This document shows positions 12,554-15,664 of a stretch of 36,843 bases of DNA, one piece after another; position 1 is the stretch's first letter, and the number at the start of each line of letters is the position of its first letter. The translations under genes were made by a program, and so were the position numbers. This DNA is from an uncultured Saprospiraceae bacterium (lineage in GTDB: Bacteria > Bacteroidota > Bacteroidia > Chitinophagales > Saprospiraceae). The stretch is from NCBI GenBank assembly GCA_937921595.1, contig CAKZTD010000040.1:1-36843 (forward strand). The letters are read 5' to 3'. The notes beneath the pieces are model-generated. The model was not told the origin of the DNA, did no database searches, and saw nothing but the letters and a program-made list of their open reading frames with translations.

Positions 12554-13300
12554 ATGAAATCATTAATTGCAATCTTATCACTGATCTGTACATTTAGCGT
12601 TCTTCAATTGAATGCACAAACGAATTCATTTTACATTGGCGCAAGAGCTGGAGGTAATACTTCTGAATTTAAATTTACAGAAGATTTAAAAGAACTATAT
12701 CCAAATTCAAACACTGTCATGGGACTTAATGGTGGTGTAGATATGGGATTGAAATTAAGCAACTGGACATTGAGTACTGGTTTGCACTACATGCAAAAAG
12801 GAGCAGAGTATCAAACAGATAATTTTGATGAAAACGGTACGACCGCATATTTTACAGGAAGAGAAAAACTACACTTTTTAAGTATTCCTGTTTTAGTAGG
12901 ATACAAACAAAATTTGACAGAGAATATTGGTTGGTCTTTAGCGATAGGTCCTTCGTTTAACTTTGGAGTTGCCGGAAAGATTGATGAAACAACTGAGTAT
13001 TTTGGATCAGATGATGTTGACTTACAAAACTATAAAGTTGCTTTCGGAGAAGGAGTAAATGACGATTACAAATCTACTCAAGTAGACTTCCAAATTAGCC
13101 CTGGTTTGTTTATCGAATTGAATGAGAAAAGTAAAATCAATTTCAATGTTACCTGGGATCTTGGAACGAGTGATATGTTCTCTGAGCGATACAAAAAAGC
13201 GAATGATTTCTTCAGTACTAACAAAGGTACTCAAGCACACCGCTCAACTGTATTCAGCGTAGGATATGAATACCACTTCAATTTTGAAGATAAGTATTAG
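12554..13300 (+). CDS. Outer-membrane beta-barrel protein (PorT-like family)
   Basis: A 248-residue protein with a clear signal peptide (MKSLIAILSLICTFSVLQLN, cleavage likely after NAQ). The mature part alternates amphipathic strands and turns typical of small outer-membrane barrels of the PorT/OMP_b-brl_2 group: SFYIGARAGGNTSEFKF, GGVDMGLKLSNWTLSTGLHY, FLSIPVLVGYKQNL and WSLAIGPSFNFGVAG. It ends in a strand with aromatic residues (FSVGYEYHFNFEDKY). It presumably sits in the outer membrane. It is the first plus-strand gene ahead of the zinc-ribbon and motor-like genes, separated from them by 128 bases that contain a long hairpin. It may therefore be independently transcribed. Its specific role is unknown; a link to the motor-like pair is only contextual. 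Confidence 0.82.
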   Translation: MKSLIAILSLICTFSVLQLNAQTNSFYIGARAGGNTSEFKFTEDLKELYPNSNTVMGLNGGVDMGLKLSNWTLSTGLHYMQKGAEYQTDNFDENGTTAYFTGREKLHFLSIPVLVGYKQNLTENIGWSLAIGPSFNFGVAGKIDETTEYFGSDDVDLQNYKVAFGEGVNDDYKSTQVDFQISPGLFIELNEKSKINFNVTWDLGTSDMFSERYKKANDFFSTNKGTQAHRSTVFSVGYEYHFNFEDKY

Positions 13301-13318
13301 ATAAGTTAGCAAGTCATT

Positions 13319-13375
13319 AAGTTAGTAAGTTAGCAAGTCGATGAAAATTTTGATCCTTTGCTAACTTATTAACTT
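13319..13375 (+). terminator. 18-bp stem hairpin after the outer-membrane protein gene
   Basis: Arms 13319-13336 and 13358-13375 pair with one G-U and enclose a 21-base loop. The arm is itself internally repeated (AAGTTAGTAAGTTAGCAA). No long T-run follows, so it may be a weak terminator or an intergenic palindromic element. Confidence 0.55.
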
Positions 13376-13428
13376 GATCCCTTCAACAAGCGCAGTTCAC
13401 CAACATTAGAACACCATAAATTTTTAGT

Positions 13429-13698
13429 ATGAAAACCTGCAATAATTGTAATACGGTAAATGAAGTCCATCTTTCCAGATGTGTGACTTGTAACATGGAA
13501 GGAAATTTTACCCTTCATGCCGTAGCAACAGAGGCTTTGCCGATAGTAGAAGAGGAAGCGGATAAGTTACATTGTTCGAATTGTGGAAGTAAAGAATCAG
13601 TAGAATTGAGCAAATGCTCACAATGTCGTTTTCCTTTGACTTTAGTCTCAGCGAAACCTATTTCAAAATTAGCACATCTAAACCGAAAGGTAGGATAG
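13429..13698 (+). CDS. Small double zinc-ribbon protein
   Basis: An 89-residue protein with two tandem four-cysteine modules of identical spacing: C4-x2-C7-x10-C18-x2-C21 and C49-x2-C52-x10-C63-x2-C66. Each module also shares the internal pattern V-x-L-S-[RK]-C, so the protein looks like an internal duplication of a rubredoxin-type zinc ribbon. There is no signal peptide, so a cytoplasmic location is likely. Its stop lies 38 bases before the ExbD/MotB-like gene on the same strand, which suggests co-transcription with the motor genes. Zinc ribbons of this kind bind proteins or nucleic acids; no specific function can be assigned. Its presence beside a motor pair is unusual and could mean an adaptor or regulator. 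Confidence 0.75.
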   Translation: MKTCNNCNTVNEVHLSRCVTCNMEGNFTLHAVATEALPIVEEEADKLHCSNCGSKESVELSKCSQCRFPLTLVSAKPISKLAHLNRKVG

Positions 13699-13736
13699 AA
13701 TTAAGAAGCTAATTGTAAACCATTAAAAATAAAACA

Positions 13737-14702
13737 ATGTCAAGAAGAACACAACAACTTTTCAGTTTGTCCTTATTGGATTTGCTGACGAGTGCCCTTG
13801 GAGCAGTGATCTTCCTTTTTATCATAACACCGAAAGGAGGAGCTTCAGCTTCAATGGATCGACAAGCGATGGTCTATTTTGATACCACGCTAATGAAAAT
13901 ACATGGAGACCTTCCTGATAGTTTATTAGGAAAGTTATCTGGAGATACGATGCAGGTTGTACTGATGGCTTATCAGGAAGATCCGCAAGCGGAAGAATTG
14001 GTAAGAGCCGAAGCAAAAAAACGAGCAGCAGAAAGAGCAAAGGCTAGAGCAGAAGCTAAAACGAAGGATGAAGAACGAGCGAAGGAAGCAGCATTAGCAA
14101 AAGCAAAAAGGAGTCAGGCGGCAAATAAAAAGCCAGCACCGACACCGAAACCAAAGCCGACACCAACGACGAAACCGACACCGAAACCTGAAGTAAAACC
14201 AACACCGACAAAACCAAAACCAACTCCGAAGCCGAAGCCAGCAACTTCGAAACCGAGTTATACGGGGAGTGGTCCATCGGTTCCAGCGAATCTCTCAATC
14301 GAGGTAAACTGGAGAGACAAAGGAGACAATATTGATCTCTTTGTATGTAAGGATGGAGATTGTGTTTACGGTGGTCGTAAGAAAAATAAAAAGATCGGAA
14401 ACTGGGATAGTGGAAAGTCACGAAACCGGATTTTCGGAAATGACCTAAGAACGAATCAGGAAGCTGTTCGTCAATTTGATGAAATTATTCCTGGGGAGTA
14501 TCAAATCTATGCTCAACTGAAAAGTAGTAAAGAAAACCGAAATTCAGTCGTGATCAATGGGTTGATTTATACTAAAGATCCGGAGTCGCTAAAAGAGCGT
14601 GGAGAAGGTTTTGAAAGAACGATTGAATTGGGCAAAGGCCGAATATTAATCGCAACGATTATCCTAGAAGCGGACGGGACTTATCGGATGAAGAAACCTT
14701 AA
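13737..14702 (+). CDS. ExbD/MotB-like single-TM protein with TonB-like Pro/Lys spacer and C-terminal beta domain
   Basis: A 321-residue protein with four visible parts. First, an N-terminal transmembrane helix at about 10-31, LSLLDLLTSALGAVIFLFII, preceded by basic residues and carrying an Asp (D15) at its cytoplasmic side. This matches the D-[LF]-[LM]-T-x-A pattern of MotB/ZorB-type and ExbD-type stator subunits. Second, an Ala/Lys/Glu/Arg-rich helical stretch at about 85-130, probably coiled coil. Third, a Pro/Lys/Thr repeat spacer at about 130-175, very like TonB's periplasmic region. Fourth, a beta-rich C-terminal domain from about 188, beginning SIEVNWRDKGDNIDLFV, resembling the DUF2135/YfaP-type 'W-x-x-x-x-D-[IV]-D-L' start (tentative). 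No OmpA-like peptidoglycan-binding domain is present. The MotA/TolQ/ExbB homologue follows at 14837. I infer a force-transmitting subunit. Confidence 0.7.
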   Translation: MSRRTQQLFSLSLLDLLTSALGAVIFLFIITPKGGASASMDRQAMVYFDTTLMKIHGDLPDSLLGKLSGDTMQVVLMAYQEDPQAEELVRAEAKKRAAERAKARAEAKTKDEERAKEAALAKAKRSQAANKKPAPTPKPKPTPTTKPTPKPEVKPTPTKPKPTPKPKPATSKPSYTGSGPSVPANLSIEVNWRDKGDNIDLFVCKDGDCVYGGRKKNKKIGNWDSGKSRNRIFGNDLRTNQEAVRQFDEIIPGEYQIYAQLKSSKENRNSVVINGLIYTKDPESLKERGEGFERTIELGKGRILIATIILEADGTYRMKKP

Positions 14703-14713
14703 GACAAATTTAT

Positions 14714-14763
14714 TAAGCTGTCAAGTAGTCAAGAGTTTTAGTTCTTGACCATTTGACGACTTA
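14714..14763 (+). repeat. Imperfect 22-bp hairpin between the two motor-like genes
   Basis: Arms 14714-14735 and 14742-14763 pair over 22 positions with about five mismatches or G-U pairs around a 6-base loop. It contains the GTCAAG/CTTGAC core also present in the hairpin at 15624. It sits between the motor-like genes without a following T-run, so it may process or attenuate rather than fully terminate. Confidence 0.55.
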
Positions 14764-14836
14764 GCCCTTAACCTCTTTGCTTTTTTATAAAAAGAAATGT
14801 GGTTATTAAATTACTCAACCATTAAAATAAAATATT

Positions 14837-15595
14837 ATGTTACATACAAAGCGTTTGCAAATCATCATAAGCATTGGAGCAGGACTTGGCCTGTGGTTAT
14901 TTTTAATCTTCGCAGCTAGTCTATGTGTAGACGGCTCAGGAATCCAACGATTTTTAGAACTTTTTGGAGGAAACTCTCAAGGATATATTCAAGCAAGTAT
15001 TTATGCTGTTTTTGTTTATAGTTATTTCGAATTATCTGGAAAACGTAAGCACATTAAGCAAGAGTTCAATGCTTTTAAATATGGATTACTTCCAGAGCAA
15101 GACCAATTGGTTTTGAATAGAGAAGAAGTAGCTCAGATCAAATTGAATACCATGCGTTTGGAGAAGGGTGGCCAGTTTTCTATGATCGGTGACTTTATCA
15201 AAAAAGCATGTACACAATACCGTAATGAGCAGAATGTTGGAGAGACTTTACAAGTATTCAACACACAAGTAAACAACAGTAAAGAAGAAATGGAAAGTGA
15301 TCTGGAAGTGGTTCGGTATTTATTAGGAGCGATTATTTCGCTAGGATTTATCGGTACATTGCTTGGTTTATCTTCTTCGATCGGGATGGCTCACTTAGCT
15401 AAAACGGCGGAAGGAATGCCTCAGATTACTCAGAGTCTTAATGTTGCTTTTGATACGACTTTGGTCGCTTTATTAGCAGGCTTGATTTTGAATTTTTTCT
15501 ATCACAGATACCTCAAAGAGATGGATACCTTTTATTCAAGGTCTAAGTCTTATATCATTAATAATTTGATTAGTCGGATTTATCATACGGCTTAA
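14837..15595 (+). CDS. MotA/TolQ/ExbB-family proton-channel homologue
   Basis: A 252-residue membrane protein. Predicted helices are TM1 (IIISIGAGLGLWLFLIFAAS) and TM2 (YIQASIYAVFVYSYF), then a long cytoplasmic helical section (about 68-155), TM3 (LLGAIISLGFIGTLLGLSSS) and TM4 (FDTTLVALLAGLILNFFYHR). TM3's GFIGTLLGL and TM4's AFDTTLVALLAGL are the signature segments of the MotA/TolQ/ExbB channel family, the pentameric half of 5:2 ion-driven motors. The family is used by flagella, TonB and Tol systems, gliding (GldL is distinct) and Zorya defence. It directly follows the ExbD/MotB-like gene, which supplies the expected partner. Order here is partner first, channel second. The gene ends at a strong terminator at 15624, so the unit closes here. 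Confidence 0.82.
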   Translation: MLHTKRLQIIISIGAGLGLWLFLIFAASLCVDGSGIQRFLELFGGNSQGYIQASIYAVFVYSYFELSGKRKHIKQEFNAFKYGLLPEQDQLVLNREEVAQIKLNTMRLEKGGQFSMIGDFIKKACTQYRNEQNVGETLQVFNTQVNNSKEEMESDLEVVRYLLGAIISLGFIGTLLGLSSSIGMAHLAKTAEGMPQITQSLNVAFDTTLVALLAGLILNFFYHRYLKEMDTFYSRSKSYIINNLISRIYHTA

Positions 15596-15623
15596 TAAGT
15601 AGTTAAGTTAATGAATTACCAAG

Positions 15624-15664
15624 TGGTCAAGGAGCCAAGAGCTTCTTGACCATTTGTTTTATTT
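15624..15664 (+). terminator. Intrinsic terminator of the motor-like cluster
   Basis: A 12-bp stem (15624-15635 with 15641-15652, one G-U) with loop CAAGA is followed by TTTGTTTTATTTG. It lies 28 bases after the MotA-like stop and may also serve the convergent histidine kinase gene. Confidence 0.85.

Follow-up and report, generated by a model that had tools for sequence, protein, structure and literature searches.

A four-gene cassette of a Saprospiraceae bacterium that looks like a previously undescribed version of ion-powered envelope motors

The locus considered here raises the question of whether four adjacent genes of an uncultured Saprospiraceae bacterium encode an ion-driven motor of the cell envelope and, if so, how it relates to the motors already described. 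The window, meaning the whole stretch of DNA that was analysed, is a contig of 36,843 nucleotides (CAKZTD010000040.1, C40) from an 8.04 Mb genome (GCA_937921595.1). Four open reading frames were confirmed on its plus strand where an earlier sequence-only reading had placed them. In order, their products are an outer-membrane barrel (PF13568), a double zinc ribbon, an axle-like protein and a ring protein of PF01618 (MOT). Together they resemble the ion-powered rotary motors behind flagellar motion and nutrient uptake, in what seems to be a version not described before and related to a predicted form with TPH-vWA axles. That the MOT ring and the Asp-bearing helix of the axle would form an ion-driven stator is well supported by homology and conserved residues. 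That the axle would be its own force arm is moderately supported, and contact with the barrel and regulation by the ribbon are suggested by gene linkage.

MOT (14837..15595, plus strand, 252 aa) belongs to the MotA/TolQ/ExbB family, with 39.6 bits against PF01618 MotA_ExbB (cut-off 22.9, E 5.3e-10). The signatures of transmembrane helices 3 and 4 (TM3 and TM4) that had been recognised from the sequence alone are both present. The TM3 motif GFIGT (residues 170-174, 15344..15358, plus strand) corresponds to GxxGT in 88/88 full-length relatives. The TM4 motif AFDTT (residues 204-208, 15446..15460, plus strand) corresponds to AFxTT in 81/88, the other seven having SFDTT (six) or AFDST (one); both patterns were among those used to retrieve the relatives, which bears on these counts. 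MOT has an extra N-terminal helix outside the TolQ/ExbB matches and a tail of about 28 residues after TM4. Its best sequence match in the PDB is MotA (E 0.0027).

The axle protein (13737..14702, plus strand, 321 aa) is composed of a putative transpore helix, a Pro/Lys-rich linker and a DUF2135-like beta-sandwich head. It possesses only one hydrophobic segment, near the N-terminus. The predicted transmembrane or transpore helix covers codons 11-30 (13767..13826, plus strand) in the AlphaFold2 model, and the hydropathy window starts at residue 13. Asp15 (codon 13779..13781, plus strand) lies in this helix within DLLTSA and is the putative ion carrier. It is invariant in two axle alignments of 19 and 30 rows (A2 and A3), and its equivalent is kept in 76/76 axle genes recognised by a profile of which the Asp is itself a part. 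Thus, the single N-terminal helix with an Asp in a stator-type pattern, proposed from the letters, was borne out. In Pfam, the protein gave no ExbD, OmpA or TonB match at E<=1 and no vWA match.

The linker (codons 35-182, 13839..14282, plus strand) is presumed to be periplasmic and contains 14% Pro and 20% Lys plus Arg. The linkers of TonB and TolA are rich in Pro and Lys. In A3, Pro makes up 8-19% of the linker in the window's clade (20 rows) and 1-9% in the other 10 rows, and it is 13-26% in six axles of a second four-gene clade that is described below. Part of the Pro/Lys linker is encoded by near-tandem 12-base repeats (window 14114-14247), and these may allow quick change of linker length.

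The putative periplasmic head (codons 183-321, 14283..14699, plus strand) is modelled as a beta-sandwich with pLDDT >90 for most of the domain. When all 30 heads were aligned by hhalign with 17 DUF2135 domains (a profile built from 17 of the 23 loci gathered), the match had a probability of 98.2% and E 3e-14 over 120 columns; for the 20 heads of the window's clade only, it was 91.9% and E 7.2e-7. The window's head by itself has no Pfam match. Among the 30 heads, DUF2135 is matched by one (E 0.0031), NOMO_6th by five (best 0.0021) and Y_Y_Y by four (best 0.0091). No sequence-level homology to TerD (PF02342) was found. DUF2135 (PF09906), which we take to be the domain of E. coli YfaP, aligns with the axle head. 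However, the 25 places where it was found differ from the axle in sitting in open frames of 542-1234 aa, and two of these have only weak upstream TPR matches in Pfam. At a related locus (L049:4252-5175), a second protein with the same head, an apparent signal peptide and no Asp helix is encoded between the axle and MOT genes, and it may be a free periplasmic partner.

These features bear on whether the cassette could be an ordinary if diverged ExbBD/TolQR-type pair serving TonB-like uptake or the upkeep of the outer membrane. Such a pair belongs to the same protein family and has a similar ring fold. However, the axle lacks an ExbD domain or a TonB C-terminus, its head is DUF2135-like, and MOT scores 14.7 bits with the TolQ equivalog model against a cut-off of 221. 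The genome also holds two other PF01618 genes elsewhere, at about 104 bits. Unlike ExbBD-TonB and TolQRA, the axle and force transducer would here be one protein, the ring subunit has its extra N-terminal helix, and the head is different. We consider the ordinary pair very improbable. GldLM, of gliding and type 9 secretion, is likewise a stator pair of Bacteroidota. In whole-genome searches, GldL was matched on contig C326 and GldM on C326, C363 and C422, with neither in the window. Contig C422 (3450-5493) carries three successive GldM-like stretches, all partial, one of them interrupted by an in-frame stop. The flagellar MotAB and PomAB pairs share the Asp helix, whereas MotB has an OmpA-like peptidoglycan-binding domain that the axle lacks.

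An anti-phage system related to Zorya was also considered. Weak PADLOC matches to ZorA2 point that way (E 7.6e-6 for MOT and 6.6e-8 for a Bacteriovorax relative). However, ZorA has a long C-terminal cytoplasmic tail whereas that of the 252-residue MOT is short, and ZorB has an OmpA-like peptidoglycan-binding domain whereas the axle has none in Pfam at E<=1. No nuclease or helicase family, and none of the effectors ZorC, ZorD and ZorE, was found by Pfam among 10 flanking proteins; PADLOC covered the four cassette proteins. The absence of an OmpA domain and of Zorya partners had been stated beforehand and holds in these searches. A Zorya relative is thus very improbable, a shade more so than the ordinary ExbBD/TolQR-type pair. 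Had the pair matched GldLM, TolQR or Zorya with confidence, that would have counted against a new system; no such match was obtained.

A close likeness is to motors of TPH-vWA proteins with TolQ-like rings. As described in the parts of PMC12204202 consulted, a ring gene stands there beside a protein whose Asp helix is fused to a head that does not bind peptidoglycan, and there is no TolR, ExbD or TonB gene. The heads of those systems are vWA domains and the axles mostly heterologous pairs, whereas the window has one axle gene, with a DUF2135-like head, alongside a zinc ribbon and a barrel. According to the same parts, they occur mainly in Proteobacteria and Verrucomicrobia; their proteins were predicted in 2025 to be axles of TolQ-like rings, and such systems await discovery (PMC12204202). 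No word starting with kinase or zinc occurs in the main text of that paper. The claim that no described system matches stands for GldLM, TolQR, ExbBD, MotAB and Zorya and is qualified by the predicted TPH-vWA form. Neither the ribbon-barrel-DUF2135 form nor a stator linked to kinase, FHA and PP2C genes was found in a literature search, a weak absence since subscription papers and preprints lay mostly outside it.

The two upstream genes were also as the sequence-only reading had described them. The barrel (12554..13300, plus strand, 248 aa) matches PF13568 at E 8.4e-16 and represents a cassette-specific subfamily. The double zinc ribbon (13429..13698, plus strand, 89 aa) consists of two CxxC...CxxC ribbons, and all eight of its cysteines are conserved without exception across 24 aligned rows (rows L059, L063 and L070 are left out). 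It is probably cytoplasmic because its hydropathy profile contains no hydrophobic segment. The intergenic gaps of the cassette are 128, 38 and 134 bases, the first being the distance from barrel stop to zinc-ribbon start noted earlier. Direct and inverted repeats with 26-base arms, 85% complementary, lie in this first gap (13302-13383) and may form a regulatory hairpin or represent a short mobile repeat.

Whether the four genes belong together was examined across genomes. MOT and the barrel were each sought in the same 119 genomes, the window's own included. MOT was matched at E<=0.001 in 32/119, many of the matches being ordinary family members. A MOT of the window's clade was present in 14 genomes and was accompanied by the barrel (E<=1e-10) in all but G017, in which the locus (L049, 47% identity) bears a kinase and the contig is cut upstream. 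At the same threshold, the barrel subfamily had 15 matches in 13/119 genomes, including that of the window, and 15/15 stand beside a MOT gene. The MOT concerned in G061 is an N-terminal piece lying at the end of a contig. Incomplete MOT pieces lie at the ends of two contigs of that genome (C63 and C307), overlapping at residues 107-147 with identities of 59% and 78%; since these identities differ, there are perhaps two MOT genes and not one split gene.

The best 80 of 507 relatives were kept from the relative scan. The window's clade in the MOT tree has 30 rows and support of 100/100, and 29 fetched loci were tallied. Where upstream DNA was available, the axle gene is upstream of MOT in 28/28, the barrel is present in 26/27 and the ribbon, as a four-CxxC gene, in 24/27. 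For these tallies 12 loci repeating places already fetched were removed. Two loci with three bases upstream (L076 and L127) were set aside for every upstream gene, and L049, where the contig ends, for barrel and ribbon. The axle of L037 (same as locus L008) was counted from tblastn and the ribbon of L036 from the four-CxxC gene tally. Loci L047 and L048, in which MOT is cut short, were kept outside tree and tallies, and L087 gave no MOT open reading frame. The counts come partly from metagenome bins, carry no phylogenetic correction and include near-duplicate rows (L038/L058, L061/L062 and L066/L067), so that loci are not fully independent.

By MOT, the nearest named relatives are Saprospiraceae and Lewinella bins. 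The clade extends with the same gene order to several genomes of Dyadobacter, a member of Spirosomataceae, which is presumably placed in Cytophagales. A separate deep clade of Saprospiraceae (seven loci, branch 1.97) has barrel, ribbon, axle and MOT in 6/6 testable loci. The four genes recur in this order at L050, a locus within the kinase-type clade; its 7.4 kb contig carries no kinase and its linker contains 4% Pro. Flanking genes vary between most loci of the cassette. Both the Asp, kept throughout the recognised axle genes, and the linkage, recurring amid differing neighbours, speak for more than chance. The sequence-only reading had made the system depend on such linkage, which holds across Saprospiraceae and Dyadobacter and again in the deep clade.

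The wider relatives bring in a further set of genes. In the 13-row clade nearest the window's (fork support 78/87, weak), a kinase, a PP2C and an FHA gene are each found no further than 8 kb from MOT in 11/13 loci; the axle gene is present in 11/13 and the barrel in 5/13. A Barnesiella locus (L114) encodes, by Pfam, a ribbon plus FHA protein, Pkinase plus FHA, FHA plus trypsin-like peptidase (L114:3838-5352, inside this kinase-type motor locus), PP2C and Pkinase. A metagenome-assembled genome (L078) has ribbons, Pkinase plus FHA, PP2C and Pkinase. Kinases occur at four loci (L054, L055, L132 and L136) whose axles bear a vWA-type DxSxS motif; the one axle scanned, that of L136, was just under the cut-offs of the vWA Pfam models. 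A group of 25 rows is made up mostly of Bacteriovoracaceae and Halobacteriovoraceae; 21 of these have a recognised axle downstream of MOT, with DxSxS in 21/21, and the two axles scanned (L096 and L099) were above the Pfam vWA cut-off. Ten loci of Chitinophagales type (L051, L052, L053, L082, L091, L092, L094, L097, L124 and L125) have ribbon and FHA genes in 9/10 and kinases in 8/10. No axle was recognised near MOT in these ten; it may have diverged strongly or have its gene at another place. In three distant relatives (L174, L175 and L176), FHA and PP2C genes stand between MOT and the downstream axle, with kinases in L174 and L175.

When 395 genomes were drawn evenly from the phylum, the family was present in at least 6 at E<=1e-12, a lower bound since no more than 6 candidates were scored in many genomes. 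The five of these other than the window's own all have axle, PP2C and FHA genes, and four have a kinase. Given the Ser/Thr kinases, FHA and PP2C proteins found among wider relatives, the cassette seems to be a version without kinases of a broader stator superfamily that may be phospho-regulated. The sequence-only reading could not show this linkage, which alters the overall view more than the barrel.

The same linkage bears on a sensing role, which is the main rival to a motor. The head or barrel would sense envelope state or a ligand, the axle would open an ion path and the ribbon would relay the signal inward. The kinase, FHA and PP2C genes of the relatives and the patchy occurrence of the family are consistent with this, as is a published sensing model for ZorAB, by which Zorya is thought to run, in the parts of PMC11890865 consulted. 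However, a kinase was present in only 3/29 loci of the window's clade (L049, L075 and L077, the last two with PP2C also), so there is no obvious receiver of a signal, and kinases could equally regulate a motor. No Ser/Thr kinase was noticed at the window locus itself. We therefore regard the sensor as rather unlikely, though far more plausible than the two rivals weighed above.

On balance we lean toward an ion-driven stator-type motor with 5:2 stoichiometry, whose axle itself spans toward the outer membrane. Five MOT subunits would build the ring, and two copies of the axle would put their N-terminal helices into its pore. Asp15 would take up and release the coupling ion against the threonines of TM3 and TM4. 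The axle would cross the periplasm by its Pro/Lys-rich linker, replacing a separate TonB/TolA or a peptidoglycan anchor, and would display the beta-sandwich head. The likeliest partner of this head would be the cassette's own barrel, so that proton-motive force could be spent on work at an outer-membrane protein or on gating it. The zinc ribbon may act in the cytoplasm as an adaptor, binding the ring or regulating it. In the relatives, a ribbon gene belongs to the same string of genes, and it is commonly fused to FHA and has kinases and PP2C close by; control elsewhere in the family is for that reason probably by phosphorylation. For the ion-driven envelope motor that had been proposed, the comparisons establish which genes are present, their conservation and linkage, the protein family and a predicted fold. 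Ion-driven motion is inferred from conserved residues and that fold; stoichiometry, ion flow, force, cargo, contact with the barrel and the role of the ribbon are likewise inferences.

The surroundings of the cassette can be described briefly. It is flanked by a methyltransferase gene and a hybrid histidine kinase gene, both on the opposite strand, and the histidine kinase neighbour was also found at a locus of the same genus (L034). A candidate terminator-like stem-loop from a consensus scan ends the cassette (15620..15656, plus strand), with a 16-pair stem and then a T-rich tail.

Taken more broadly, and held only tentatively, the family may be a large undescribed class of rotary envelope machines regulated by phosphorylation, built on stator rings with interchangeable DUF2135-like or vWA axle heads. 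It would be under Ser/Thr kinase, FHA, PP2C and zinc-ribbon control across Bacteroidota, with two-gene vWA versions in Bdellovibrionota. Kinase-less, barrel-coupled four-gene forms, in which axle and force arm would be one protein, would stand at three or more points of the tree. If true, the set of 5:2 motors would extend beyond Mot, Ton, Tol, Gld and Zorya to a toolkit that has exchangeable axle heads and a tie to eukaryote-like kinase signalling. There would also be a possible route for cytoplasmic phosphorylation to switch an envelope motor. The cassette offers a genetically simple four-gene case for asking whether the axle itself serves as the periplasmic force arm.

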